From Bacillota bacterium (GTDB lineage Bacteria > Bacillota > Clostridia > Oscillospirales > Oscillospiraceae), in the NCBI GenBank assembly GCA_021200975.1, contig JAJQFT010000033.1, positions 1 through 35,197 on the forward strand: a DNA stretch of 35,197 nucleotides, written 5' to 3'. The notes under the pieces are model-generated. The model had not been told where the DNA came from and ran no database searches. It saw only the letters and a program-made list of their open reading frames with translations. Position numbers and translations under genes: made by a program. Positions 1,158 through 32,582 of this stretch are shown in pieces (position 1 is the first letter of the stretch; each line of letters begins with the position of its first letter).

Positions 1158-1825
1158 TGCTTTACCACCTTATATCCAATGCCGCGCATGGTTACGATTT
1201 TGAAATCGGGATTGCCGCGGAAGCGCTCGCGCAGGCGCCCGATATGCACGTCCACGGTGTGGGAATCGCTGTCGCTGTCGTAGCCCCAGACGTCGTCCAT
1301 GAGCTGCTGGCGCGTAAAAATTTTCCCCGGATAAGAGGCCATCTTGTACAGCAGCAGGAATTCCTTCTGTGGCAGAACCTGACTCTTACCGTTCGCGGTT
1401 ACGGTGAAGGTGTCATATTCCAGTACCGTGCCGCCGATGGTCTGGCTTCGCTCGCTAATCATCTGCGAGCGGCGAAGCAGCGCCTGCACGCGAAGCACCA
1501 TCTCGTTGACGTTGACGGGTTTCACCATATAGTCATCCGTGCCGGAGAGAAAGCCGAGCCGCAAATCGTCGAAGGCGTCCTTGGCGGTAATCATCAGCAC
1601 GGGCGTGTTGTTCCCCACCTCGCGCAGCAGACGCACGAACTCGTAGCCGTCCATGACGGGCATCATGATGTCGGATAAAATCAGGTCAAAATAGTCGTGT
1701 TCCATCGCGTCCAGTGCTTCCTGCCCATTGGCAACCTCCTTAACGGTGTAGCCGTTCTTAATCAGCACATGGGCAAAGAGCCGCCTGAGCTCGCGGTCAT
1801 CCTCTGCAATCAAAATTTTGAGCAT
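1154..1825 (-). CDS. OmpR/PhoB-family response regulator
   Basis: This 223-aa DNA-binding response regulator has a receiver domain (about 1-115) with the acidic pair in AEDD, the phospho-acceptor Asp52 in LILSDIMMP and the conserved Lys in MVKPVN. A winged-helix trans_reg_C domain follows (about 130-223), with the typical DSHTVDVHIGRLRERF recognition region. A longer reading frame begins 20 codons upstream, but I chose ATG 1825 because AAAGGGGAG lies 6 nt before it and MLKILIAEDD is the usual family N-terminus. The kinase gene follows with a 4-bp overlap. A phased operator at 1934-1960 upstream suggests autoregulation. PhoB-family regulators characteristically bind 11-bp-spaced direct repeats, which fits this operator and the one at 4184-4241. 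Confidence 0.95.
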   Translation of the reverse strand: MLKILIAEDDRELRRLFAHVLIKNGYTVKEVANGQEALDAMEHDYFDLILSDIMMPVMDGYEFVRLLREVGNNTPVLMITAKDAFDDLRLGFLSGTDDYMVKPVNVNEMVLRVQALLRRSQMISERSQTIGGTVLEYDTFTVTANGKSQVLPQKEFLLLYKMASYPGKIFTRQQLMDDVWGYDSDSDSHTVDVHIGRLRERFRGNPDFKIVTMRGIGYKVVKQ

Positions 1826-1916
1826 ACTTTGCTCCCCTTTCTCGGCTTCTGCAAATATTTTACCCACTTCGGTAAAGACTGTCAAGCGCGATTTCGGGCA
1901 AAAAGGCGCAACATAA

Positions 1917-1969
1917 AGGATAGGTAAATTGTATCAACTGTTTCTCAACTGAATATCAACAGAAGTTGA
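1917..1969 (-). promoter_or_regulatory. Phased direct-repeat operator and promoter of the response-regulator operon
   Basis: TCAAC occurs on the plus strand at 1934, 1945 and 1956, exactly 11 bp apart (GTTGA in the direction of transcription). Eleven bases beyond the last unit is a -10-like TATCCT (complement of 1917-1922). The repeats replace a normal -35, as in PhoB/OmpR-activated promoters. A single opposite-facing GTTGA lies at 1965-1969. The same arrangement recurs at 4184-4241. Autoregulation by the adjacent regulator is inferred. Confidence 0.6.
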
Positions 1970-1986
1970 TTTTCCCCATGATGCGC

Positions 1987-2025
1987 AAAAAAGGCGCTGC
2001 CCGGCGGTTCAGACCCGGCAGCGCC
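1987..2025 (-). terminator. Rho-independent terminator of the HdeD-like gene
   Basis: On the minus strand just past the HdeD-like stop codon there is a GC-rich stem (GGCGCTGCC against GGCAGCGCC, with a bulge), followed by a run of six T (complement of 1987-1992). Confidence 0.8.
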
Positions 2026-2049
2026 CGAGAGGAAGAGATACATGCGATT

Positions 2050-2589
2050 TTATTTGCCCTTGCGGGAGAAAAAGCAGGTAAGGATGTCCAGAACGGCCTC
2101 TACAATCAGAGCTACTCCTATGAACGTCCACAGCACAACCGTGGAGGTGAAGGGATTGCAGATAATCAGGATGGCAAATAGGAGCGTCACTACCGCGCCA
2201 ATCAGGGCGACATACCAGTACTTCTGCTTCAGGCGAAGCAGGTCAACGGACACCTGAAGCTTCGCAACGCCGGAAACCAAAATTAGGATGCCATACAGGA
2301 CTGTAATCACCGGGAAGGCCGCAATCAGCCAATCGGAGCGGAATGAGCAGAATGCGCCCAGCCCGATAAAGAGGAGGCCGCTGCCCAGCAGCCCGTTCTG
2401 CGCCGCCTCCTCGGCGCTGCTTGTAAAGTAGCGGAAGATTTCCACAATGCCGATGACCATCATCACGATGCCGAACACGACCAGGATGCCGGAGGTAAAC
2501 CCCACGGGATTGATTAGCAACAGAATGCCGATGATGACCTCAATCACGCTCATAATCAGGCTGGCTGCTCCGTTTGTTGCTTTTTTCAT
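2050..2589 (-). CDS. HdeD-family (DUF308) membrane protein
   Basis: This is a 179-aa very hydrophobic protein with about six membrane helices and a short basic C-terminus (FFSRKGK). The paired glycine-rich helices with VVFGIVMMVIGIVEI match the HdeD/DUF308 family. In enterobacteria HdeD is linked to acid resistance, but no biochemical activity is established, and the role here is unknown. GAGG lies 9-10 nt before the start. The radical SAM gene lies 58 bp upstream on the same strand, so the two may share the operator-controlled promoter near 4170. A terminator follows the stop. Confidence 0.8.
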   Translation of the reverse strand: MKKATNGAASLIMSVIEVIIGILLLINPVGFTSGILVVFGIVMMVIGIVEIFRYFTSSAEEAAQNGLLGSGLLFIGLGAFCSFRSDWLIAAFPVITVLYGILILVSGVAKLQVSVDLLRLKQKYWYVALIGAVVTLLFAILIICNPFTSTVVLWTFIGVALIVEAVLDILTCFFSRKGK

Positions 2590-2626
2590 GATTTTTTCCT
2601 CAACTTTCTAATTTTTGATTTTCCTT

Positions 2627-2652
2627 ATATTACTATATATTACTATATTACT
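2627..2652. repeat. AT-rich 10-bp tandem repeat
   Basis: ATATTACTAT is present at 2627-2636 and 2637-2646, followed by a partial third copy that runs into the stop codon of the radical SAM gene. It fills the gap between that gene and the HdeD-like gene and is strikingly AT-rich against its surroundings. On the minus strand it offers several TATAGT-like -10 boxes, so it may hold a promoter for the downstream gene, but I see no clear -35. Confidence 0.5.
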
Positions 2653-4030
2653 TGGATGAATTGCAGCCGGTGCAGCCGGCGCACGGATGGGAGACGCTCC
2701 AAAGCTCGTCCGCTTTCGGTGTCCAGCGCTCGGCATAGGGCTTGCATTTGGCATAGAGGTTCTGAATATCCTCTGGGGACTGCATATCGGTTGAGTGCGC
2801 GCCGGAGCTGGTGACCATATCGCGCATAGCCTCGGGATTTTCCAGCATCGGGCAGGGGCGGAGCATATTCTCGTTAAAGGGCTGGCCCTGTCTGTAGGCC
2901 ATAAACAGCGGGCGCTTGTAGGCCTCCAGAAGCGTGTGCTCGCGGATATTGGAATCGGCGTAATGGATGAAGGCGCAGGGCTCGATGTCGCCGTTGGCAT
3001 TAATGTGCAGGTAGCTCCTGCCGCCGGCAATGCAGCCGCCTACATACTCTGCGTCGTTCTGGAAGTCAATGGTGAAGATGGGCTTTGTGCTGCGGTACTC
3101 GCGGATTTTACGGTACATGGTTTCGCGCTGCTCGGGGCTGGGCAGGAGCGCGGGCACAGCCTCGTTTCCAACCGGCATATAATGGAAAAACCACGCAAAT
3201 TTCACACCGTTGTCTACCAGCATATCGATGTATTCTTCCGAGGAGATGGAATCGACGTTCGCCGAGGTATAGCAGCACGAAGCGCCAAAGGGCAGCTTCT
3301 TCTGCTTCAGAATGTTCATGGCGCGGATGACGGCCTGGTAGGTTCCCTTTCCGCGGCGGGAATCGGTGGCCTCCCCGAAGCCCTCGATGCTGATTGCCGG
3401 GACAAAATTCTTCACGCGCAGCATTTCGTCGGCAAAAGACTCGTCAATGAGCGTACCGTTGGTAAAGGCAAGGAATTCGCAGTCCGGATGCGCTTCGCAC
3501 AGGCGGATGATGTCCTTCTTGCGCACCAGCGGCTCGCCGCCGGAGAACAGATACATGTAGGTGCCCATTTCCTTGCCCTGCCGAATCACGATGTCGAGCA
3601 GCTCGTATTCTAAATTGAGCTTCTGACCATATTCCGCTGCCCAGCAGCCGGTGCAGTGCAGGTTGCAGGCGGAGGTAAGGTCAATCAGCATCGCCCAGGG
3701 GATATTGCAGTTTTGCTCAGCCTTCCACTTTTCCTCCCGGCTGTAGCCGATTAGGGCAGTGTTGACAATGAAGTTTTCGAAGAATACCTTCCGCACCTGC
3801 GGGTCAATGTCCGTCCAGAAGCTCTTGACCAGCCGGTACCAGTTGCTCTCCGGGTCGCTTATCACAGTGTGAATCGTGTTCCTCTGGGTGAGAAAGCGAT
3901 TGTCCTTATCGAACTTGTCCGCCCATTCCATCAGCTTGGGAAAGCTCTTGTCCGGATCCTCATCGAGATAGTGCAGCACGCGCTTCACGGCGATGGCCTG
4001 CATGGTTTCTTTTACGGTTTTTTCGCTCAT
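2648..4030 (-). CDS. Radical SAM protein with Cys-rich C-terminus
   Basis: This 460-aa protein has the radical SAM cluster motif CNLHCTGC (Cys122, Cys126, Cys129), which binds a 4Fe-4S cluster and S-adenosylmethionine, followed by the GGEP motif (FSGGEPLVRKKD) of the core barrel. A second Cys region (CIAGGRSYLHINANGDIEPC, then CP and CKP further on) resembles the SPASM-type auxiliary cluster domain. The protein ends in CAGCTGC, a further possible metal or redox site. I preferred ATG 4030 over a start 46 codons upstream because AGAAAGGAAAG precedes it by about 7 nt and the upstream extension is low-complexity. The substrate is unknown. A leader of about 135 nt with a hairpin separates it from an operator-controlled promoter near 4170. 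Confidence 0.85.
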   Translation of the reverse strand: MSEKTVKETMQAIAVKRVLHYLDEDPDKSFPKLMEWADKFDKDNRFLTQRNTIHTVISDPESNWYRLVKSFWTDIDPQVRKVFFENFIVNTALIGYSREEKWKAEQNCNIPWAMLIDLTSACNLHCTGCWAAEYGQKLNLEYELLDIVIRQGKEMGTYMYLFSGGEPLVRKKDIIRLCEAHPDCEFLAFTNGTLIDESFADEMLRVKNFVPAISIEGFGEATDSRRGKGTYQAVIRAMNILKQKKLPFGASCCYTSANVDSISSEEYIDMLVDNGVKFAWFFHYMPVGNEAVPALLPSPEQRETMYRKIREYRSTKPIFTIDFQNDAEYVGGCIAGGRSYLHINANGDIEPCAFIHYADSNIREHTLLEAYKRPLFMAYRQGQPFNENMLRPCPMLENPEAMRDMVTSSGAHSTDMQSPEDIQNLYAKCKPYAERWTPKADELWSVSHPCAGCTGCNSSK

Positions 4031-4092
4031 TGTAATCTTTCCTTTCTGTTTTCGGCGTGTTTTACATGGAAAACCTGAATCCATCGCCTTCG

Positions 4093-4125
4093 GCGGATTG
4101 CACCGCCTTTCGCGCCGCAATCCGC
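4093..4125 (-). other. Hairpin in the 5' leader of the radical SAM mRNA
   Basis: GCGGATTGC (4093-4101) pairs perfectly with GCAATCCGC (4117-4125) across a 15-nt loop, inside the roughly 135-nt leader between the predicted promoter and ATG 4030. No T-run follows, so it is not a standard terminator. It could be a stability or regulatory element, or a chance pairing. Confidence 0.35.
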
Positions 4126-4166
4126 TCCTGCCGATTTGTTCAGAGCCTCTTTGGATTACGAGGCAC

Positions 4167-4258
4167 ACTTTACCCGATGTTCTTCAAATTTTGATCAACT
4201 GAATCTCAACAATCGTTGACCTTCAGTTGCAAATCTGTTGAGCTTTGCTCTGTAGAAT
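4167..4258. promoter_or_regulatory. Divergent phased-repeat operators between the radical SAM gene and the Ca-ATPase
   Basis: Two back-to-back arrays are visible. Facing left: TCAAA at 4184, TCAAC at 4195 and TCAAC at 4206 (11-bp steps), with TAAAGT (complement of 4167-4172) as a -10, 11 bp beyond. Facing right: GTTGA at 4215, GTTGC at 4226 and GTTGA at 4237 (11-bp steps), with TAGAAT at 4253-4258, again 11 bp beyond. The geometry equals that at 1917-1960. PhoB-type regulators recognise such direct repeats in place of a -35. Control by the regulator at 1154-1825 is inferred. Confidence 0.65.
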
Positions 4259-4292
4259 ATTGCAAATTCAAAATAGCATGGAGGTATGTAGA

Positions 4293-6902
<2,610 letters not shown>

Positions 6903-19181: not shown

Positions 19182-21575
19182 TTATTGTACCTTCTTCATG
19201 TAAGCGGAGGCGGTTTTTGCCATCAGCTTCTTGGTGCCGACCTTGTCGAACGCGACCTCCAGCAGTGCATCGCCGCTGAGCTTCAGAACCGACAGCACCA
19301 GCCCCCGCCCGAACGCCGAATGCTCAACCATGTCGCCCTTGCTCAGCTCGAGGCAGGGCGCGTGGGAGCCGCCGGAGGGCGTGCTGGATAGCGTGTGATG
19401 CGCAGCGGTGCGCGGCTTTTGTGCCTCGTGCCGGATTGGCTCGGCGCGATAGCCCCCTTCGGCGGCATAGCCGCCCCGGCGCACAATTTCACCGGCAGGA
19501 AGCTCTTTGAGAAAGCGAGAGGGCAGCGCGGCGTTCGTGCGGCCGTAGAGCATCCGCTGGCGCGCATGGGAGATGGTGAGGGTTTTCTTCGCGCGGGTGA
19601 TGGCAACATAGCACAGCCGCCGCTCCTCCTCCATCTCCTCCCGGTCGCCGATGGCGCGCATTCCCGGGAACAGCCCGTCCTCAAAGCCAACCAGAAATAC
19701 ATGCGGAAATTCTAGACCCTTCGACGAATGCATGGTCATCAGCACCGCCGCGTCGTCGGAGGCGTTGTATTCCTCAATGTCGGTATACAGCGCGATTTCC
19801 TCAAGAAATGCAGCCAAAGTGGGCTCTTCGGCGCTTTTTACGAAGTTTTCGATGCTGGATTTCAGCTCCTTCACGTTCTCAAGGCGGCCGAGATTTTCCA
19901 TGTCGGGCTTTGCCTCCAGCATGGTGACGTAGCCCGTGCGGCGCAGCAGCTCCTCGTAAAAGTCCGGCAGGCTCATTCCGTCGGCAAGCAGCTGCTGCAT
20001 GGAGGCGACTATCGAGGCAAAAGCGCGGAATTTTGCCGCGCTCTTTTCCAGCGGGGCGTAGTTTTCCGGGTGGCTGACAACCTGATAGAGCGGTACGCCC
20101 TCCGCCTGCGCCAGCCGCTCGGCGGTTTCAATGGATTTAGCGCCGAGGCCGCGGGGCGGATTGTTAATAATGCGCTTTAGGCGCAGATTATCTGACGGAT
20201 TGTGAATAACGCACAGGTAAGAAAGCATATCCTTAATTTCGGCGCGGTCAAAAAATCGCGTGCCGCCGATGACGCGGTATGGAATGCCATTGCGCTTCAG
20301 CGCAAATTCCACGGCGTTAGACTGGGCGTTCGTGCGGTAGAGCACGGCGCAGTCGCGGAAGGCGGCGGTTTTGCTGAGCGCGAGAATCTGCCCGGCGACA
20401 AAATTTGCCTCTGCCCGCTCATCCGGCGCTTCGTAGACCGTGATGGGCTTACCGGAACCGTTGGAGGTCCACAGGTGCTTCCCCTTGCGCCCCGTGTTGT
20501 TGGTAATCACGGCGTTGGCGGCGTTGAGAATTGCCTGCGTTGAGCGGTAGTTCTGCTCCAGCCGGATGGTGCGCGCCGCGGGGTACTGCTTCTCAAAGTC
20601 CAGAATATTTGCGATGGTCGCGCCGCGAAAGCGGTAGATGCTCTGGTCGTCGTCGCCGACCACGCAAAGATTTTCTCGCCCGCCCGCGAGCAGCGCCGCG
20701 AGCAGATATTGCAGGTGGTTGGTATCCTGGTATTCGTCCACCAGCACATAGCGGAACTTGCGCTGGTAGTAGGCGCGCACCTGCTCGTCGCTCTGCAGCA
20801 GCTGGACGGTGAGCAGGATGATATCGTCAAAATCCAGCGCGTCATTTTCCTTCAGCCGCGCCTGATAGCGCTTGTAGGCGCGGGCAATGGGGAGCATCTT
20901 CAGGTCGTTTTGCTCCTGCGCCGTCTGCGCAAGCTCCTCGGGCAGCACCATGCTGTCCTTTTCGCGGCTGATGATATTGAGCACATACTTGGGCGGGAAG
21001 GTCTTGTCGTCCAGCCCCATTTCGCGCAGCACCTCCTTCATCAGCCGCTCGGAATCGGCGGTGTCGTAGATGGTGAAGTGCTTTGTGTAGCCAAGCTTTT
21101 CAATGTTGCGGCGCAGGATGCGGCAGCAGGCGGCATGAAAGGTCATCGCCCAGATGTCCTGTGCCTCGGGCCCCAGCATACCGATTAGCCGCTCCTTCAG
21201 CTCGCCCGCAGCCTTGTTGGTGAAGGTGATGGCGAGAATGCTCCAAGGCGCGGCAGGCTCGAGCGCGCAGAGGTAATCCGCCCGCTGCCGCTGCGAATCC
21301 GACAATTCGGCCGGCAGATTTTCTAGAAAATCGACATCCTCGGCCTCGATATATTCGGGAATCTCGCTCGCGTCGCTCGCGCGACCAAAGCGGATGAGAT
21401 TCGCAATGCGGTGAATCAGCACGGTGGTCTTGCCGCTGCCTGCGCCCGCAAGCAGAAGCAGCGGCCCCTCGGTGGTGAGCACGGCCTCCAGCTGCCGCTC
21501 GTTCAGGTCGGAAAAATGGGACGCGATATAGCTTCGCCGTGCGGCGAGAAATTGTTTCTCTTTTGTAATCTCCAT
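19182..21575 (-). CDS. pcrA: ATP-dependent 3'-5' DNA helicase, PcrA/UvrD type
   Basis: This 797-aa superfamily 1 helicase has motif I AGAGSGKT (43-50), motif Ia ITFTNKAAGELK, motif II VDEYQDTN, motif III VVGDDDQSIYRFRGA, motif IV LEQNYRST, motif V MTMHSSKGLEFPHVFLVG and motif VI RRLCYVAITRAKK. A C-terminal UvrD-type tail ends in a basic segment with the VEHSAFGRGLV motif that in PcrA contacts RNA polymerase. An acidic insertion of about 48 residues (61-108) lies between motifs I and Ia. The start is ATG 21575 (AGGAG 6 nt upstream). It functions in repair and in clearing replication and transcription conflicts. Confidence 0.94.
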   Translation of the reverse strand: MEITKEKQFLAARRSYIASHFSDLNERQLEAVLTTEGPLLLLAGAGSGKTTVLIHRIANLIRFGRASDASEIPEYIEAEDVDFLENLPAELSDSQRQRADYLCALEPAAPWSILAITFTNKAAGELKERLIGMLGPEAQDIWAMTFHAACCRILRRNIEKLGYTKHFTIYDTADSERLMKEVLREMGLDDKTFPPKYVLNIISREKDSMVLPEELAQTAQEQNDLKMLPIARAYKRYQARLKENDALDFDDIILLTVQLLQSDEQVRAYYQRKFRYVLVDEYQDTNHLQYLLAALLAGGRENLCVVGDDDQSIYRFRGATIANILDFEKQYPAARTIRLEQNYRSTQAILNAANAVITNNTGRKGKHLWTSNGSGKPITVYEAPDERAEANFVAGQILALSKTAAFRDCAVLYRTNAQSNAVEFALKRNGIPYRVIGGTRFFDRAEIKDMLSYLCVIHNPSDNLRLKRIINNPPRGLGAKSIETAERLAQAEGVPLYQVVSHPENYAPLEKSAAKFRAFASIVASMQQLLADGMSLPDFYEELLRRTGYVTMLEAKPDMENLGRLENVKELKSSIENFVKSAEEPTLAAFLEEIALYTDIEEYNASDDAAVLMTMHSSKGLEFPHVFLVGFEDGLFPGMRAIGDREEMEEERRLCYVAITRAKKTLTISHARQRMLYGRTNAALPSRFLKELPAGEIVRRGGYAAEGGYRAEPIRHEAQKPRTAAHHTLSSTPSGGSHAPCLELSKGDMVEHSAFGRGLVLSVLKLSGDALLEVAFDKVGTKKLMAKTASAYMKKVQ

Positions 21576-24693: not shown

Positions 24694-25401
24694 TTAAGTC
24701 AAGCCCGTACTCAGGTGCGCGGCAAGCGTCGCGGCAATTACGCAGCAGAGCTTTTTCTGGTATTCGGCGTCGCGCAGCGCCGCCTCTTCCTCGGGATTCG
24801 ACAGGAAGCCGCACTCCACCAGAACACCCGGGCAGGTGATATTTTCCATCAGGTAAACGCCGTCCGCGCGCTTGCACTGCCGTGTGCTGCCGGGGTTGAC
24901 GGATTGTGCAAAGGCTTCCTGAAGCTCGGCTGCGAGAATGGCGCTATCTGCCGTAGCTGCATAAAAAACCTGCGCGCCGCTGTAGCGGCTGTCAGCGAAA
25001 ATATTTTGGTGAATGCTCACAAGCACCGCGCCTGCGCATTCGTTGCAGATTTTCACGCGCTCATGCAGGTCAGAAATCTTTTTCTGTGAGAGCGTCTGCC
25101 CCTGCGTGTAAATCTGGGTGTCCGTCGTGCGGATGGACTTGGTTTCGTAGCCCAGCAGCTCCAATAGAGGCGCAAGCCGCAGGGTGATTTGCAGATTCAG
25201 GCTGCTTTCCAGCACACCAGTACAGGAGGTTGCGCCGCCGTCCTCCCCGCCATGCCCGGCGTCAAGAATGATTACATGGGACGATTCGGTAGCCTCCGCG
25301 CCCGCGGAAACCGACCGGCTCACGCATTCCACCAGTCCGATCGCTACAATACAGACAAGCAGATAAAATGGCAGCGCCGCCACAAAAGAGTCCTTCTTCA
25401 T
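24694..25401 (-). CDS. cwlD: N-acetylmuramoyl-L-alanine amidase CwlD
   Basis: This 235-aa Amidase_3 enzyme has an N-terminal membrane anchor (about 6-27). Zinc ligands and the catalytic Glu are visible in ILDAGHGGEDGGA, GVLESSLNLQ, VSIHQN and GVLVECGFLSN. CwlD removes stem peptides from spore-cortex peptidoglycan as the first step in forming muramic-delta-lactam, which is needed for germination. The start is ATG 25401 (GAGGTGG 5 nt upstream); the 73-codon upstream extension runs into cotJ DNA and is not supported. A possible SigE-type promoter (TCTAATT, 13 nt, GCTACAAT) lies just upstream on the minus strand. Confidence 0.93.
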   Translation of the reverse strand: MKKDSFVAALPFYLLVCIVAIGLVECVSRSVSAGAEATESSHVIILDAGHGGEDGGATSCTGVLESSLNLQITLRLAPLLELLGYETKSIRTTDTQIYTQGQTLSQKKISDLHERVKICNECAGAVLVSIHQNIFADSRYSGAQVFYAATADSAILAAELQEAFAQSVNPGSTRQCKRADGVYLMENITCPGVLVECGFLSNPEEEAALRDAEYQKKLCCVIAATLAAHLSTGLT

Positions 25402-25445
25402 CCGAACCACCTCAGAGCATTGTAGCGCCCGCGGCGAAAAATTAG

Positions 25446-25474
25446 AACCATCCGCCAAAATCCGGCATAGTATG
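25446..25474 (+). promoter_or_regulatory. Mother-cell sigma (SigE/SigK-like) promoter of the cotJ operon
   Basis: AACC (25446-25449), 16 nt, then CATAGTATG (25466-25474) fits the SigK pattern mACm-N16-CATAnnnTA except the last base. The same -10 box (CATAGTAT) also fits SigE, but a SigE -35 14 nt upstream (GAACCAT) is weak. cotJ in Bacillus is SigE-driven. The ribosome site and start codon lie about 35-50 bp downstream. Confidence 0.45.
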
Positions 25475-25520
25475 ACCTGGAACGACTGTTCTATGTTGTC
25501 CGAAAAGGAGGTTTCAGCAA

Positions 25521-25964
25521 ATGGAGCAACAAAAAGACGGACGCTGCGGACTGGGGCATCTCCCCTCCCCAGCGCCGATGGCGTATCCCTATGTACCCTA
25601 TCAGCGGGAGAATCCGCCAAAGTACGAAGCGCGCAAGGGCTTGGTGCGCGGCACGCTTTTCCCGGGGCTTGACCTGCCCTTCATGGGCATGGTAAACCGG
25701 CAGGAGAAGCCTGTCACGCCGAAAACCGAGCTGCAAGCTCTGGGCTTCGCGGTGCAGGAGCTGACGCTCTACCTCGATACCCATCCCGGCGACCGGGAGG
25801 CGTTGGAGCTTCTGCGCAGCTACCAGAGGCTATACCGCCAATGCCAGGCGGAATACGCCGAGAAGTACGGCCCGCTGAACAATACCGACGGCACCAACGC
25901 CCGGGAATACCGGTGGCTTGACGACCCGTGGCCTTGGGAATTTGCGGCGAACAAGGAGGCTTAA
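25521..25964 (+). CDS. CotJA-CotJB fusion spore-coat protein
   Basis: This 147-aa protein joins two coat proteins that are usually separate. Residues about 20-60 (YVPYQRENPPKYEARKG, GTLFPGLDLPFMGMV) are CotJA. Residues about 70-140 (LQALGFAVQELTLYLDTHPGD, YQRLYRQCQAEYAEKYGPL, YRWLDDPWPWE) are CotJB. Both sets of landmarks are in one uninterrupted frame with a short Lys/Pro/Thr linker. AAAAGGAGG lies upstream of ATG 25521. cotJC starts 3 bp after the stop. In Bacillus the CotJ proteins form part of the inner coat. Confidence 0.88.
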   Translation: MEQQKDGRCGLGHLPSPAPMAYPYVPYQRENPPKYEARKGLVRGTLFPGLDLPFMGMVNRQEKPVTPKTELQALGFAVQELTLYLDTHPGDREALELLRSYQRLYRQCQAEYAEKYGPLNNTDGTNAREYRWLDDPWPWEFAANKEA

Positions 25965-25967
25965 GCG

Positions 25968-26429
25968 ATGTTTATCTATGATAAGAAATTGGAGTACCCC
26001 GTGCGTATCCGCCGGCCAAATCCTCGCTTGGCGGCGATGATTATCACGCAGTACGGCGGGCCGGACGGCGAACTGGGCGCATCACTGCGCTACCTGTCCC
26101 AGCGCTACAGTATGCCCTTCGATGACCAGCGCGCCCTGCTTACCGACATCGGCACGGAAGAGCTCGGGCATTTAGAGATGATTGGCGCGATTGTGCACCA
26201 GCTTACGCGGAACCTGAAAACGAAGGATATTGAGAATAGTATGCTCGCTCCCTATTTTGTCGATCACACCGTTGGCGTGTATCCGGCTGCCGCGAGCGGC
26301 TTCCCTTACACCGCGGCGAGCATGGAGGTAAAGGGCGACCCCATCGCGGACCTCACAGAAGACCTCGCAGCAGAGGGTGCGCCTGCGCAAGAGCAACCTA
26401 CGGTGGGCGCGCTCCTAAGGAGGCTCTAA
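25968..26429 (+). CDS. cotJC: CotJC, 5' part (gene interrupted by a mobile element)
   Basis: Codons 1-136 encode the N-terminal part of CotJC, a manganese-catalase-like spore-coat protein (YDKKLEYPVRIRRPNPRLA, ITQYGGPDGELGASLRYLSQR, DIGTEELGHLEM, GDPIADLTEDLAAE). The Mn-ligand motifs E (DGELG), E-x2-H (EELGH) and E (LAAE) are here, but the fourth-helix E-x2-H motif is missing. After codon 136 the frame enters the inserted element and adds 17 unrelated residues (GAPAQEQPTVGALLRRL) before a stop. The missing 62 codons lie at 30903-31091. AAGGAGG is 8 nt before the ATG. As it stands the protein should be inactive, and excision would restore it. Confidence 0.93.
   Translation: MFIYDKKLEYPVRIRRPNPRLAAMIITQYGGPDGELGASLRYLSQRYSMPFDDQRALLTDIGTEELGHLEMIGAIVHQLTRNLKTKDIENSMLAPYFVDHTVGVYPAAASGFPYTAASMEVKGDPIADLTEDLAAEGAPAQEQPTVGALLRRL
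26364..26375 (+). repeat. Left attachment-site core (attL) in cotJC
   Basis: CTCGCAGCAGAG encodes Leu-Ala-Ala-Glu of CotJC and is repeated exactly at 30891-30902. Flanking bases differ on both sides, so 12 bp is the full identity. The two copies bound the inserted element. Confidence 0.85.
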
Positions 26430-26681
26430 ACGGAACGGCTGCGGCGTCTTGTCCTTACCCCTGCTGTGCTGGTTGCGGTGCGCGGCAGCGGTTGCTGCAT
26501 TAGCGAAGCGGCACAGGCCAGAATCCTTGAAAAGCTATATCAGGGCGATTCACCCTTCTGCGCTGCCGGACATATGAGGCAATAGCTCCCGAAGAATGCT
26601 GGCAGCATTCGCAAATGGTAGATGGGCTTCTCATGGCCGGTCATTTCGCGGGTTCCCTCGCAAAAATTCCGCTCGAAACGA
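26430..26681. other. Element left-end region without a supported gene
   Basis: No ORF here has a start codon with a ribosome site. One plus frame stays open for about 50 codons (26431-26586, reading TERLRRLV... to HMRQ) but lacks a plausible start; it may be a degraded gene or chance. A small perfect hairpin (GAATGCT, GGC loop, AGCATTC, 26594-26610) is present. The ogt promoter follows. Confidence 0.4.
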
Positions 26682-26710
26682 TTGCATTTCCGTCGAATAT
26701 GTGCTATCCT
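26682..26710 (+). promoter_or_regulatory. SigA-type promoter of ogt-tag
   Basis: TTGCAT (26682-26687), 17 nt, TATCCT (26705-26710), located 24 bp before the chosen GTG start. This suggests vegetative expression of the repair cargo, independent of the recombinase. Confidence 0.55.
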
Positions 26711-26733
26711 ATTCCAGCGAGGGGGTGGCGCGC

Positions 26734-27246
26734 GTGCAGAAGCGATTTTACGATTCTCCAATCGGGGAGATCGTTTTGGCCGCAGATGCGGCGGGTCTGA
26801 CCGGGCTGTGGTTTGTCGGGCAGAAATATTTTCCGGCCAATCTGGAAAATACGCCTTGTGAAGCGGCGGATCCCATTCTGGCTGAGGCGGCGCGATGGCT
26901 GGACATGTACTTTTCAGGCAGGGAGCCGGACTTTATGCCGCCGCTGCACGCGGTAGGGACGGTTTTTCAGCATAGCGTCTGGCAGATTCTGCGCACGATC
27001 CCCTATGGCACGACCACAACCTACGCGGAGATTGCGCGCGCTCTTGCCGCGCAGTTGGGCGGCGGGCGTGGATCGGCGCGGGCGGTTGGCGGGGCGGTTG
27101 GAAGAAATCCAATCTCCATCCTAGTGCCCTGTCATCGCGTTGTGGGTGCGGACGGCAGCCTGACGGGCTACGCCGGCTCCCTAGAAAAGAAGCGCGCTCT
27201 GCTTGAGCTGGAATTGGCCGGGGCGCGCGCTCTGCGCCGGCCATAG
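26734..27246 (+). CDS. ogt: Methylated-DNA--protein-cysteine methyltransferase
   Basis: This 170-aa suicide enzyme transfers the alkyl group from O6-alkylguanine (or O4-alkylthymine) to its own cysteine. The active site is Cys133 in VPCHRVVG, preceded by the helix-turn-helix region PYGTTTTYAEIARAL and the Asn hinge GRNPISIL. The N-terminal domain is short (1-70), as in Ogt. GTG 26734 was chosen since GAGGGGG lies 7-8 nt upstream; a GTG at 26725 overlaps that site, and the long upstream extension is not supported. It is element cargo in tandem with tag. Confidence 0.9.
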   Translation: MQKRFYDSPIGEIVLAADAAGLTGLWFVGQKYFPANLENTPCEAADPILAEAARWLDMYFSGREPDFMPPLHAVGTVFQHSVWQILRTIPYGTTTTYAEIARALAAQLGGGRGSARAVGGAVGRNPISILVPCHRVVGADGSLTGYAGSLEKKRALLELELAGARALRRP

Positions 27247-27259
27247 AGGAGGATATGTT

Positions 27260-27817
27260 ATGCGTGAAATCCGCAAACGCTGCGCGTGGGTGAACTTGAA
27301 AAACCCGCTCTATGTCCGCTATCACGACGAGGAGTGGGGCGTGCCCGAGCATCGCGACGAAAAGCTATATGAGCTTTTGATTTTAGAGAGCTTTCAGGCG
27401 GGTCTATCGTGGGAATGTGTGCTCAATAAGCGCGAGGCTTTTCGCGAGGCCTTCGACGGTTTTGCGCTCGACAGGGTCTGCGCATACGGCGAGGAAAAAG
27501 TGGACGAGCTGATGCACAATCCCGGCATTATCCGCAACCGCAGAAAAATAGAAGCAGCGATTGCGAACAGTCTTGTTTTTCGGCAGATTCAAGGAGAATT
27601 CGGCAGCTTTGACGCCTATATTTGGGGCTTCAGCGCCGGGGAAACCGTGCGGGAGGATTACCACCTGCGTACCACCTCTCCCCTGTCGGACGCCATATCC
27701 GCCGACCTCAGGCGGCGCGGCATGAGATTCGTCGGCTCTACGATTATCTATGCCTATCTGCAATCGATTGGCATGATTTTCGCGCACGGTCGAGAATGCG
27801 ACTGCGCGGCACAATAA
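27260..27817 (+). CDS. tag: DNA-3-methyladenine glycosylase I
   Basis: This 185-aa enzyme excises 3-methyladenine from alkylated DNA. The family N-terminus is RCAWVN...YVRYHDEEWGVPEHRDEKLYE, with zinc ligands Cys8, His22, His176 and Cys180 (HGREC) in the positions known for E. coli Tag. The catalytic Glu is in LLILESFQAGLSW, and the ring-binding motif appears as GMRFVGSTIIYAYLQSIGM. GAGGAGG precedes ATG 27260. It follows ogt by 13 bp, forming a two-gene alkylation-repair operon inside the element. Confidence 0.95.
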   Translation: MREIRKRCAWVNLKNPLYVRYHDEEWGVPEHRDEKLYELLILESFQAGLSWECVLNKREAFREAFDGFALDRVCAYGEEKVDELMHNPGIIRNRRKIEAAIANSLVFRQIQGEFGSFDAYIWGFSAGETVREDYHLRTTSPLSDAISADLRRRGMRFVGSTIIYAYLQSIGMIFAHGRECDCAAQ

Positions 27818-27819
27818 TA

Positions 27820-27856
27820 CGGCAGCAGGAGAGAAATCCTGCTGCCGCCTTTTTAT
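27820..27856 (+). terminator. Rho-independent terminator of ogt-tag
   Basis: The perfect stem CGGCAGCAGGA (27820-27830) pairs with TCCTGCTGCCG (27837-27847), followed by CCTTTTTATT. It sits 3 bp after the tag stop, between converging genes, and overlaps the end of the XRE gene. Confidence 0.9.
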
Positions 27857-28953
27857 TCCTTACAAGCCTTCACCCAAGCATCCCAGCGGGAATCCGCATG
27901 GATCTCCAGCGCAACATCTGCGCTGCTTGGCACACACCACCATGGCCAGACCTCGGGAAGCTGAGCAGCAATCCCGCCCGCCGGGGCGGAATCGGAGGCC
28001 GTGTCAAATTTCCGGGCGAGTATTCGCGCATTTTCGAGCGCATCGAAGGCTCCGTCGCGGTCACCTGCTCGCCAAAGATACTCCGAAAGGTAGAGATGCA
28101 GGCTCGACATTTGCGCGTAGTAGGGTACTTGGCTTTCCAATACGGCGAAGATCCCAATCGCATCCTGAATCCGCGCCGCCGATTTTTCGGCGCTATAGTG
28201 GTTCTTATTGGCAATCACCGCCCAAACCAGCAGGTCAGCTGCCATCGAAACCACCTTGCCCAGAACACGCTCATATTCCTCGGCGCGCGACCTGCCGTCG
28301 CAGCAGTTGAGCGAGAGCATTTCCCGCGAGGCGCAGAGCGCCGGGACGCTGCTCACGATTTCCCTTGCTTTTTCGTGCGCGCCCGTGTTTGCATATAGCT
28401 GCACAAGCTCCCGCATGGCGGTTTGCCGCAGCTGGCCTTCACCGAGTGAGGAAAGAAGCTTTTCATAAATCCCAATTGCCTCCTGCCACTCGGTATATTG
28501 CTTGTGCCGCGCGGTGTCGAGAATGTCGTAGCCGTCGGCGTCCGTGAGGTGATGCTCGCCGTGGCGGACATAGCCCGCGTTGTAGAGGGTGGATGCTAAG
28601 CAAAGCATCAGCTTCTCGTTGCCCGGGAATTCCAGCAGCGCGCTGCGCGCGTCGGCGATGCACTCGTCCACGCATACATCCACGCCGTTGTTGCGCTTAT
28701 TTTTTTCGGTAATGGCCTGCAGCATCGCGTCGAGCTTGCTCTGCCGGTCGCTCTCGTAGCCAAACAGCTCGTCGATGGTGACGCCGAAGTAGTTGGCGAT
28801 GGCGGGGATCAGCTCCAGATCCGGGCAGCCCCCGTTCGCCTCCCAGCGGGAGATGGCCTGCGCGGTTACGCCGATGGCGTTCGCCATTGCCTCCTGCGTG
28901 CGCCCATCGCGCTTGCGCAGCTGCTTGATTTTTGCTCCGATTTGTACTTGCAT
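27853..28953 (-). CDS. XRE-family transcriptional regulator with C-terminal helical (TPR-like) region
   Basis: This 366-aa protein has an N-terminal Cro/C1-type helix-turn-helix (about 5-62: IKQLRKRDGRTQEAMANAIGVTAQAISRWEANGGCPDLELIPAIANYFGVTIDELFG) followed by a long helical region (about 95-330) resembling TPR-type sensor domains seen in peptide-responsive regulators of Firmicutes. AGGAGG lies 8 nt before the ATG. It is divergent from the 48-aa ORF/recombinase operon, with 176 bp between them, and is a good candidate to control that operon. Its ligand is unknown. It could equally be independent cargo. Confidence 0.85.
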   Translation of the reverse strand: MQVQIGAKIKQLRKRDGRTQEAMANAIGVTAQAISRWEANGGCPDLELIPAIANYFGVTIDELFGYESDRQSKLDAMLQAITEKNKRNNGVDVCVDECIADARSALLEFPGNEKLMLCLASTLYNAGYVRHGEHHLTDADGYDILDTARHKQYTEWQEAIGIYEKLLSSLGEGQLRQTAMRELVQLYANTGAHEKAREIVSSVPALCASREMLSLNCCDGRSRAEEYERVLGKVVSMAADLLVWAVIANKNHYSAEKSAARIQDAIGIFAVLESQVPYYAQMSSLHLYLSEYLWRAGDRDGAFDALENARILARKFDTASDSAPAGGIAAQLPEVWPWWCVPSSADVALEIHADSRWDAWVKACKE

Positions 28954-29073
28954 GAGAAAAACCTCCTGAATTTTTCCACCGATGTAGGGCTATTATAGCG
29001 GCAAATGGGAGAGATTTCAATTATCAATTTCTTGTTTAAAAATACACGAATCGTTGAGTTTTCGCCCGGCGCA

Positions 29074-29102
29074 GCCTATTGCCCGGCGCGCCGCGTATTC
29101 TA
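29074..29102 (+). promoter_or_regulatory. Candidate mother-cell-type promoter of the recombinase operon
   Basis: GCCTATT (29074-29080) matches the SigE -35 consensus KMATATT at 6 of 7. After 13 nt comes CGTATTCTA (29094-29102), close to CATANNNTA of SigE/SigK with one core mismatch. Two direct copies of GCCCGGCGC (29064-29072 and 29081-29089) flank the -35. Spacing is 1 nt shorter than in the yqfC and yunB promoters. Suggestive only. Confidence 0.35.
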
Positions 29103-29129
29103 TAGGAGTCTATGCGGGAGGTGTATATT

Positions 29130-29276
29130 ATGGCAGGTGAAAATTCAGAGCGCAGCTGCAAGAGCATATTTCGCAGCGGCGAGGCCTCGCCCACGCGCGA
29201 AGCAATTACGCGCGCTTGGGCTGCGCTGATCCGGCAGCTTGAGCGCGGCAAGGCATCGCGCCGGGGCGACGCATGA
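29130..29276 (+). CDS. Small basic protein coupled to the serine recombinase, 48 aa
   Basis: This short ORF has a strong ribosome site (GGGAGGTG, 6 nt before ATG 29130) and ends in an ATGA overlap with the recombinase start. The product reads MAGENSERSCKSIFRSGEAS, then a predicted amphipathic helix with conserved-looking TREAITRAWAALIRQLERGK and a basic end. I do not recognise it. Its position and size suit a recombination directionality factor or another partner of the recombinase, but nothing in the sequence proves this. Confidence 0.65.
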   Translation: MAGENSERSCKSIFRSGEASPTREAITRAWAALIRQLERGKASRRGDA

Positions 29277-30826
29277 GAGCCGCTATCTACTGCCGCTTAT
29301 CCGAGGAGGACCGAAACAAGCAGTCACAAAGCGACGATTCGGCCAGTATTCAGAACCAGAAGGCGATGCTGCTGGCCTATGCGGCACAGCAGGGCTGGGA
29401 GGTTTCGGGCATTTACAGCGACGACGACTATACCGGCTCCGACCGCCGCCGCCCGGCCTTTAACCGCCTTCTGCGCGATGCGCAGCAGCAGCAGTTTGAG
29501 GTGATTCTGTGCAAGACGCAGTCGCGCTTCACGCGCGAGCTGGAGCTGGTGGAGAAGTACATTCACGGTCTGTTTCCAATCTGGGGGATCCGCTTCGTAA
29601 GCATCGTGGATAACGCCGATACCGCCAACAAGGGCAATAAGAAATCCCGGCAAATCAATGGGCTTGTCAACGAATGGTACTTAGAGGATATGTCTGAGAA
29701 TATCCGCAGCGTGCTCACGAGCCGACGGCTGGGCGGCTTCCATATCGGCGCATTTGCTCTGTATGGGTACAGAAAAGACCCCAATCAAAAGGGGCATCTG
29801 CTGATTGACGAGGAGGCCGCAGCAGTCGTTCGGGAGGTATTTACCCTTTTTTCTGGCGGCTACGGCAAGACCGCCATTGCGCGGCTTCTGAACGAGCGGG
29901 GGATTCCAAACCCAACGGAGTATAAGCGCCTGCACGGCCTGCGCTATCGGCAGCCCGGCGGAAGGAACAGCACCCTGTGGAAATACGGTGCGATCTCGGA
30001 TATGCTGACAAACGAAATCTACATCGGCAACATGGTGCAGGGAAAGTACGGCAGCGTTTCCTACAAGACGAAGCAGAACCGTCCCCGCCCGCGGGAGAGC
30101 TGGTATATCGTGCCGGGCACACACGAGCCGATCATCGACCGCGAGCTTTGGGACCGGGTGCAGCGCTGCATCGCGCAAAGGGCAAAGCCGTTCGCCGGCG
30201 GCACGATCGGGCCATTTGCGGGAATCGCCCGCTGTGCCAACTGCGGCTATGCCATGCGTTCGAGCAAAAGCCGCGGGCGGCACTACCTGCAATGCCCCAG
30301 CCGGTATATTGCCAAGGAGGCCTGCATCGGCTCGTTCATTGCGGTGGACTGGCTGGAGCAGCTTGTGCTATCTGAGCTTCGGCGGCTGACCGAGGCGTAC
30401 CTCGACACGGAAGCGCTCGCGAAGAGCCTACCCATTGCCGATGATTTTCAAGCGCAAAGGAAGATCCTGCGCTCGGAATTAAAGGACTGCCAGAGAAAGA
30501 TTGACGAATATACCGAGGGAATCGGCGCGCTGTACATAGACCGGATTCGGGGCGAGCTGCGCGAGAGCGACTACCGCGCAATGCACGCGGATTTCGAAAA
30601 AAAGCGCGCGAATCTGGAAACGCTGGCGGCGCAGCGCGCGCGGGAATTGGAGGCGCTGGAGGAAACAGCGCGCCTTGGCGACCAACGCATGGAGCTGGCG
30701 GAGCAGTACCTGCACCCGGCGCAGCTCACGCGGGAGATGAGCGAAATCCTGATTGAGCGAATCAGCGTAGGTAAGCGGAAAAAGGGAGAAAAGCATCCCC
30801 CTGTCGAAATCTATTGGAATTTCTAA
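29273..30826 (+). CDS. Large serine recombinase (element excision/integration)
   Basis: This 517-aa site-specific recombinase has an N-terminal resolvase catalytic domain (1-150) with nucleophile Ser10 in YCRLS and the arginine-rich QSRFTRELELVE. A recombinase DNA-binding domain follows (about 160-300; GFHIGAFALYGYRKDP, IARLLNERGIPNP, ISDMLTNEIYIGNM). A zinc ribbon has Cys321, Cys324, Cys341 and Cys351, and a coiled coil spans about 395-480. This is the domain set of SpoIVCA and TnpX-type enzymes. Translation is coupled to the 48-aa ORF. The gene lies next to the right attachment site, as usual for an integrase. Confidence 0.95.
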   Translation: MRAAIYCRLSEEDRNKQSQSDDSASIQNQKAMLLAYAAQQGWEVSGIYSDDDYTGSDRRRPAFNRLLRDAQQQQFEVILCKTQSRFTRELELVEKYIHGLFPIWGIRFVSIVDNADTANKGNKKSRQINGLVNEWYLEDMSENIRSVLTSRRLGGFHIGAFALYGYRKDPNQKGHLLIDEEAAAVVREVFTLFSGGYGKTAIARLLNERGIPNPTEYKRLHGLRYRQPGGRNSTLWKYGAISDMLTNEIYIGNMVQGKYGSVSYKTKQNRPRPRESWYIVPGTHEPIIDRELWDRVQRCIAQRAKPFAGGTIGPFAGIARCANCGYAMRSSKSRGRHYLQCPSRYIAKEACIGSFIAVDWLEQLVLSELRRLTEAYLDTEALAKSLPIADDFQAQRKILRSELKDCQRKIDEYTEGIGALYIDRIRGELRESDYRAMHADFEKKRANLETLAAQRARELEALEETARLGDQRMELAEQYLHPAQLTREMSEILIERISVGKRKKGEKHPPVEIYWNF

Positions 30827-30862
30827 GGAAGCTCTGAATCAATCGGCGGATTCCGAGCTTCC
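30827..30862. repeat. Imperfect inverted repeat after the recombinase stop
   Basis: GGAAGCTCTGAATC (30827-30840) pairs with GATTCCGAGCTTCC (30849-30862) with one mismatch, loop AATCGGCG. It starts immediately after the recombinase stop codon and ends 12 bp before the attP dyad arm at 30875. No T-run follows. The left arm is part of the 16-bp repeat also present at 19034. It could be a factor-binding site or a weak terminator. Confidence 0.5.
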
Positions 30863-30890
30863 CGACAGGATAGCAGGTTGCTCCTGTGCG

Positions 30891-30902
30891 CTCGCAGCAG
30901 AG
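30891..30902 (+). repeat. Right attachment-site core (attR)
   Basis: This is an exact second copy of CTCGCAGCAGAG (first at 26364-26375). It is followed directly by the in-frame remainder of cotJC (CAG AAG GCG, Gln-Lys-Ala). On its left, AGGTTGCTC (30875-30883) mirrors GAGCAACCT (26391-26399) at the other end of the element. Confidence 0.85.
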
Positions 30903-31091
30903 CAGAAGGCGCGCGCGACCTACGACAACATCCTGCGCCTGAGCGACGACCCGGACGTGAATGACGTAATCAAATTCCTGCGCGAGCGGGAGGTCGTGCA
31001 TTTCCAGCGCTTTGGCGAATCGCTCGAGCAGCTGCGTGACAAGCTCAACGAGAAAAATGTGTACTATATGAACGCGTCCTTTGATATGTAA
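30903..31091 (+). pseudogene. cotJC: CotJC, 3' part (separated from its start by the mobile element)
   Basis: These are the last 62 codons of CotJC with no start codon of their own: QKARATYDNILRLSDDPDVN, then a helix with the Mn-ligand motif EREVVHFQRF, ending NASFDM and TAA. Joined to codon 136 at 26375 through the shared 12-bp core, it gives EDLAAEQKARATYD, the expected CotJC sequence, and a 198-aa protein of normal family length. No frameshift or stop is present, so the segment is under coding constraint rather than decayed. Listed as a gene fragment only because it is detached here. Confidence 0.92.
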
Positions 31092-31106
31092 AACGCGCAT
31101 AGGAAA

Positions 31107-31130
31107 CGGGCTGCGGATTTCCGCAGCCCG
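31107..31130 (+). terminator. Hairpin after cotJC (weak terminator)
   Basis: CGGGCTGCGG and CCGCAGCCCG form a 10-bp perfect stem with a 4-nt ATTT loop, 15 bp after the cotJC stop. It is followed by GGAGAAATTTG rather than a T-run, so termination may be partial. Confidence 0.5.
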
Positions 31131-31180
31131 GGAGAAATTTGTCACTTTACACAAATAGCAGCTAAAAAAAGGAAAAGAAC

Positions 31181-31209
31181 TTGTAATCCTCCGCAGCTTC
31201 TGCTACAAT
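31181..31209 (+). promoter_or_regulatory. SigA-type promoter of gdhA
   Basis: TTGTAA (31181-31186), 17 nt, TACAAT (31204-31209), about 38 bp before the ATG, with AGGAGG between. Confidence 0.75.
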
Positions 31210-31211
31210 AG

Positions 31212-32582
<1,371 letters not shown>

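Follow-up and report, generated by a model that had tools for sequence, protein, structure and literature searches.

The spore-coat gene cotJC of a gut-type Oscillospiraceae bacterium (Bacillota; Clostridia) is split by a compact 4.5-kb element carrying a large serine recombinase (LSR), and this element is probably excised in the mother cell during sporulation, rebuilding the gene. The split lies within a stretch of 35,197 nucleotides, hereafter referred to as the window, which comprises positions 1 to 35,197 of contig JAJQFT010000033.1 (assembly GCA_021200975.1). The cotJC reading frame opens at position 25968 and breaks after codon 136. The sequence of codons 133–136, CTCGCAGCAGAG (26364–26375), is found in exactly two copies in the window, the second exact copy being located at 30891–30902; a third site with one mismatch is present at 24925 (chance expectation in the window, 0.32 sites with up to one mismatch). 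Directly 3′ of the right copy, the remaining 62 codons follow in frame up to the stop at 31089–31091, and joining the two parts at their common GA removes 4,527 bp and yields 198 codons without a stop. Both parts match the Mn_catalase family of Pfam (PF05067), at profile positions 1–151 and 147–198 of 284. This arrangement, including an LSR just inside the right repeat, had been proposed in an initial annotation made from the sequence alone and was confirmed by direct reading, the LSR gene occupying 29273–30826. The host metagenome-assembled genome (MAG; 1.89 Mb, 97.6% complete, 123 contigs) encodes SpoIIID and SpoIVA, both above cut-offs. A second intact cotJC, which the initial annotation had regarded as a potential objection, was not found in this MAG, where the two split pieces are the only CotJC matches at E ≤ 0.001. 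The element lies inside the reading frame of a sporulation gene, and the split gene and its recombination functions are arranged as follows.

25447..25473, plus strand: sigmaK-type promoter match of the cotJ operon (AC-N17-CATAnnnT), of the same type in 24 of the 24 genus loci examined, the window among them
25521..25964, plus strand: fused cotJA-cotJB, first gene of the operon, with PF11007 and PF12652 within one open reading frame (ORF)
25968..26375, plus strand: 5′ part of cotJC, codons 1–136 (the ORF extends to 26429), from sequence and Pfam
26364..26375, plus strand: left 12-bp repeat in attL, crossover GA at 26373–26374
26376..26404, plus strand: left attP arm, forming an inverted repeat with its right counterpart (complementary at 19 of 28 positions)
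29130..29276, plus strand: small protein (48 residues) with conserved counterparts upstream of related LSRs; candidate recombination directionality factor
29273..30826, plus strand: LSR of 517 residues with Resolvase, Recombinase, Zn_ribbon_recom and DUF4368 domains (Pfam)
30869..30899, plus strand: right attP arm, from junction comparison
30891..30902, plus strand: right 12-bp repeat in attR, crossover GA at 30900–30901
30903..31091, plus strand: 3′ part of cotJC, codons 137–198 and stop; the longest ORF with its own start has 44 residues

The split is not peculiar to the window. Out of 388 LSR relatives detected in a scan of named genomes, we analyzed the best 80 (67–72% identity), and in 76 of these the locus also contains half of a cotJC gene with its break at codon 136; this half lies within 700 nt after the LSR stop in 69 cases and elsewhere in the locus in seven. 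By comparison, none of the 27 other LSRs of related genomes (29–35% identity) had cotJC in the fetched loci. The hosts comprise dozens of Clostridia from Lachnospiraceae, Oscillospiraceae and other families, including cultured species and many MAGs; among the genera are Blautia, Parablautia, Roseburia, Anaerotignum, Flintibacter, Pseudoflavonifractor, Caproiciproducens and Anaerotruncus. The codon-136 break is found in the cultured isolates Anaerotignum lactatifermentans DSM 14214, Parablautia intestinalis D8-82 and Flintibacter muris DSM 110149. Thus, although the window derives from a MAG of 123 contigs, the idea that the break is an assembly artefact is refuted at the family level by the recurrence of the same broken codon in many separate assemblies, cultured isolates included; we consider it exceedingly improbable and rejected it. 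Taken together, these data establish, by sequence, both the split and the LSR family associated with it. As separate observations, contigs end at most ~5 nt from the cotJC break in L033, L056, L096 and L123, which could be caused by mixtures of excised and integrated DNA or of strains and was not used as evidence, and L041 (G018) carries a tandem pair of recombinases of the codon-136 site, site B (positions 1635–4904), beside the cotJC 5′ half, with the 3′ half ~46 kb away on the same contig.

Comparison of 67 right-hand with 32 distinct left-hand junctions at codon 136 (L028 and L045 being one and the same left junction) refined the point of exchange. Most left junctions read GCAGCAGAT up to the break and GGGGCGAT and then GTAAGAACAAC beyond it, and the right junctions read GTTGTTCTTATATGATTGCAGCAGAG before and CAAAAGGC after it. 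Because codon 136 ends in T in most left copies and in G or A in the right copies, the crossover is placed at the GA of the Glu136 codon. The 12-bp repeat, which the initial annotation took for the crossover core, was accordingly rejected in this role; the identity beyond the GA in the window arises because one attP arm there resembles cotJC. The attP arms are nearly palindromic, and the 19 of 28 matched positions in the window compare with at most 18 in 20,000 shuffles. The window thus displays a short shared core, flanking att arms and a join that restores the reading frame. Of the 69 adjacent cases, 57 have the LSR next to the 3′ half and on its strand, and in the remaining 12 the LSR neighbours the 5′ half and is encoded on the opposite strand, with a similar LSR-side att arm in both orientations; a flipped non-palindromic centre inside a palindromic site could explain the two arrangements. 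A regular-expression search for the attP dinucleotide succeeded in just 2 of the 69 loci and was not used.

One alternative is that the element broke cotJC and left a dying gene devoid of function, and two 3′ halves (L077 and L116) do end early. However, 56 of the 67 site-B 3′ halves are open to their natural end, five are cut at codon 175 by another element and four run to a contig end (L033, in which the piece begins at a contig end and the alignment gives 97%, was left out of this count). The median ratio of nonsynonymous to synonymous divergence (dN/dS) was calculated from 23 5′ halves and from 53 3′ halves that share one layout. It is 0.24 for the 3′ part of split genes (87 pairs) versus 0.23 for the same codons of intact genes (29 pairs), and 0.18 for split 5′ halves (7 pairs) versus 0.27 for intact ones (21 pairs). 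Hence, the broken cotJC halves are mostly open and under purifying selection. In the L120/L129 pair, the 5′ part combines a dS of 0.58 with a dN of 0.008, and the cotJ promoter is kept in the window. Among 36 genus-mates, a comparison suggested by the initial annotation, 13 have a full-length cotJC, 13 have a piece ending near codon 64 or 136 (several of the pieces are one-sided at contig ends), and 10 lack a high-identity match, which would suit a decaying gene, although incomplete MAGs are included in the latter group. On this evidence we rejected gene decay as very unlikely. The conservation of both parts would also be compatible with a split protein, the halves of which are made separately and then assembled. 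However, in the window the 3′ part lacks a start codon from which all of it could be read (its longest start-bearing ORF runs for 44 residues from codon 155), and the break falls in a conserved motif of the catalase fold; this possibility, too, was rejected, with next to no probability left to it. The joined product of L106 has full-length counterparts at 97–98% identity.

A further common component of these loci is a small protein of 43–71 residues encoded upstream of the LSR in 76 of the 84 LSR entries, with the motif CKSVFKSGExTT...FTxKWIELINxLEKxK (12 sequences aligned). The eight misses comprise the window, where the pattern overlooked an ORF that is present, L002, which duplicates the window, four entries with little or no upstream DNA (L067, L069, L115 and L121), L119, and one of the two LSRs of L041. 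The protein has no significant match in Pfam or NCBIfam, and the protein collection contains 199 relatives of it, each of the 120 listed being named only ‘hypothetical protein’. Judging from its position and conservation, it is a likely candidate for the directionality factor of the LSR. CD1234, the factor of the Clostridioides difficile skin element, consists of 72 residues and is controlled by sigmaE and SpoIIID (PMC5025042); the likeness of the two small proteins is one of description only.

Upstream of the small ORF, a sigmaE-type promoter motif, ATA-N16-18-CATAnnnT, was found in 57 of 75 loci (74 of the 76 upstream regions, those of 90 bases or more, and the window), as compared to a mean of 0.7 and a maximum of 4 in 200 shuffles; random 300-nt windows of the same loci matched in 108 out of 4,000 cases. 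Sites of one spacing number 54, or 29 distinct ones once near-copies are merged. Within 500 nt upstream of the LSR, the motif occurs in 20 of 27 site-B recombinases, 2 of 8 at site A, and 1 of 25 other LSRs. None of 49 cotJ operons is preceded by such a motif, and this null result led us to search for the sigmaK-type counterpart, AC-N16-18-CATAnnnT, which was detected in 35 of the 49 (shuffles: mean 1.4, maximum 5). In C. difficile, sigmaE and sigmaK promoters have a common −10 element and differ in the −35 element, ATA versus AC, and two operons of the cotJC type depend on sigmaK (PMC3789822). The combination of a sigmaE-type motif at the small-protein/LSR operon with a sigmaK-type motif at cotJ predicts an order of events, namely, excision followed by transcription.

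Collectively, these features suggest the following scenario. In the mother cell, the LSR, probably directed by the small protein whose gene immediately precedes its own, would recombine attL with attR across the GA dinucleotide, releasing a 4.5-kb circle and leaving an unscarred cotJC. For the family as a whole, sigmaE-driven excision would precede sigmaK-driven transcription of cotJC. The forespore would retain the element, so that the mother cell could lose it at no expense.

Several observations weigh against programmed excision, and some of them favor a different scenario, in which the element is a selfish mobile cassette that uses a conserved spore gene as a landing site and excises only for transfer, the reassembly of cotJC being no part of sporulation. 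In three larger sets, made up of 45 pairs hand-picked among related LSRs, silent-site divergence is higher in the cotJC 3′ half than in the LSR, or has reached saturation there, for 44 pairs, a pattern that points to horizontal spread. Given that spread was mostly horizontal, selection before insertion may explain part of the open 3′ halves. Prophage-sized relatives occupy the codon-136 site as well, and four of the 80 LSR relatives have no cotJC nearby: in L063 and L117 the attP arm continues into other DNA, L067 has an entire attP-like palindrome (all by eye), and L119 is the fourth. The sigmaE-type motif is missing from 18 of the 75 family members and, within 500 nt upstream, from all four site-C and all three site-Z LSRs. 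Because the relatives are not independent, the shuffle figures overstate the promoter case. In the window itself, the small-ORF/LSR operon lacks the motif (best score, −4.6), and this is the principal weakness of the case where this copy is concerned; possible reasons are divergence of its promoter and control by the divergently encoded HTH protein. The best intact match of the joined window product is at 88% among the matches listed, none of which comes from its own species. Finally, we infer that the element is excised, when this happens, what the small protein does, and that sporulation controls the window copy.

Nevertheless, the selfish cassette does not account well for the presence of the sigmaE-type motif in 57 of 75 loci versus 1 of 25 at other LSRs (the windows searched differ in size), nor for the retention of the small protein and the LSR in compact elements with few other genes. 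Moreover, three loci fit joint descent of the split gene with its LSR, with both parts constrained: in L102, L120 and L129, dS values are concordant for the LSR (0.35–0.42) and cotJC (0.27–0.45), with a cotJC dN of 0.019–0.031. L096 and L098 show the reverse of the horizontal pattern, with an LSR dS of 1.20 and a cotJC dS of 0.25. Overall, we regard a purely selfish cassette as unlikely, and programmed rebuilding of cotJC in the mother cell as the best explanation.

The mode of action predicted for the window element, by analogy, is that of skin, SPbeta in spsM, vfbin, gin and yin (PMC5595907, PMC10747680), and the skin-like, scarless rebuilding of cotJC put forward in the initial annotation is supported by the 76 of 80 relatives, the likeness of the joined product to intact proteins, and purifying selection on the 3′ halves. 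The C. difficile skin element in sigK is excised by the CD1231 recombinase with CD1234 and, as predicted for the window element, employs a serine recombinase to rebuild a mother-cell gene (PMC5025042); however, it differs in its target, larger size and prophage-like nature, and its recombinase and factor are likened to ours by description only. Furthermore, cotJC, unlike the skin target, has four sites in one gene, used by several LSR lineages. The gin element in gerE of Bacillus cereus ATCC10987 (28.6 kb, three recombinases, 9-bp core) resembles the window element in lacking recognised phage genes, in having a serine recombinase with an extra factor, for which the small protein is the candidate here, and in splitting a small sporulation gene (PMC5595907), but the window element is only 4.5 kb, has one recombinase and resides in another gene, gin being an element of Bacillus. 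Excision as a circle from sporulation genes is described for yin in yabG of Clostridium botulinum, SPbeta in spsM and vfbin in spoVFB (PMC10747680); these also interrupt sporulation genes and, unlike the cotJC elements, involve one gene each and are prophages or prophage-like, yin being reported as unique to one strain. A near-precedent is phage phi027 of C. difficile R20291, the attachment site of which lies beside CDR20291_1465, a CotJC-like manganese catalase gene (PMC11222575); the phage is described as adjoining this gene, and not as splitting it or allowing it to be rebuilt. No split cotJC is described among the titles and abstract openings listed from open-access PMC. What is new here is cotJC as a target, the compact, phage-gene-free form in Clostridia, the breadth of occurrence, the use of one gene by several LSR lineages, the three-piece genes, the common small protein and the promoter order.

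cotJC is a hotspot for such insertions. Further breaks, due to other LSR lineages, lie near codons 29, 64 and 175, and in some loci the gene is in three pieces. On balance, we lean towards the view that at least five serine-recombinase lineages have each specialised on one of four codons (~29, 64, 136 and 175) of the 198-codon cotJC across Clostridia, with at least two elements in some genomes, and that sigmaE-timed excisions, one after another, would reassemble cotJC in the mother cell ahead of its activation by sigmaK. Two side observations concern these sites. In G088:C1 and G145:C7, cotJC parts meeting near codon 64 lie ~157 kb and ~118 kb apart, respectively, on one contig. In L053 (3265–3339) and L124 (8742–8813), the final ~24 codons of cotJC are present a second time, downstream of an already complete 3′ half, as though a tail had arrived with a site-C element.

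Programmed gene rebuilding in sporulation has so far amounted to a handful of separate cases. If our interpretation is correct, it is widespread and repeatedly evolved in gut spore-formers, centred on one coat gene, with elements down to ~3 kb. The order of a sigmaE promoter for excision and a sigmaK promoter for the target could be tested in cultured commensals, and the findings provide a large set of related recombinases that share a conserved target site, along with a ready candidate for the factor that reverses their action. They also suggest that cotJC is possibly recorded as truncated or missing in many genomes able to rebuild it.

Besides the recombination genes, the element in the window carries two cargo genes and a regulator.

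26596..27246, plus strand: Ogt-like O6-methylguanine methyltransferase, cargo (PF01035, PF02870; a GTG start near 26734 is also possible)
27260..27817, plus strand: TagI-like methyladenine glycosylase, cargo (PF03352)
27853..28953, minus strand: HTH_3 regulator with weak TPR matches (Pfam), candidate repressor

A sigma70-like promoter precedes the regulator gene (29020–28992, minus strand). The initial annotation had described the element as non-phage, in agreement with the Pfam scan of its five ORFs, which (PHROGs not being searched) revealed no phage family besides the recombinase, so that the element does not conform to the prophage-like skin/SPbeta kind. The same LSR family is also present in the viral collection, where 6 of 10 related loci carry a cotJC piece (L162–L167), ending at or near codon 136 in five of them (L163–L167), and the longest record with the LSR family at the codon-136 site measures 69 kb. 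Among deposited phages, 779 records matched, none reaching 60% identity. The nearest NCBIfam models of the LSR are CcrB, of the SCC elements (110.6 bits), and XisF, of the fdxN element (87.4 bits), far below the curated cut-offs of 900 and 375, and assignment to the SCC recombinase CcrB was therefore rejected. Arg8 and Ser10, which we take to be residues of the catalytic motif, are both present, which speaks against an inactive recombinase, a concern raised in the initial annotation. A search of 25000–31500 against Rfam returned nothing at the gathering score.

Related elements of ~3–7 kb retain the small protein and the LSR, with few other genes and varied cargo: a metallo-beta-lactamase-fold hydrolase in L120, with an ORF of equal length in L129; GmrSD in L131 and L073, the latter also with Schlafen AlbA_2; a GpsA-like protein in L104; a Na/Pi cotransporter in L075; and a hemerythrin-response regulator with a histidine kinase in L127. 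With their GmrSD-type restriction and Schlafen-type genes, the compact elements L073 and L131 may ferry phage defence. In the flanking DNA of the window, the CotJA-CotJB fusion is a single ORF of 147 residues, and the fused query aligns over most of its length in other loci of the genus. A sigmaE-type match (ATA-N17-CATAnnnT; 25494–25467, minus strand) lies upstream of a divergent CwlD-like amidase gene, identified by eye, with a likely start near 25404. Within the window, the family promoter matrix scores highest (11.7) at 20206–20233 on the plus strand, in or near a minus-strand ORF.

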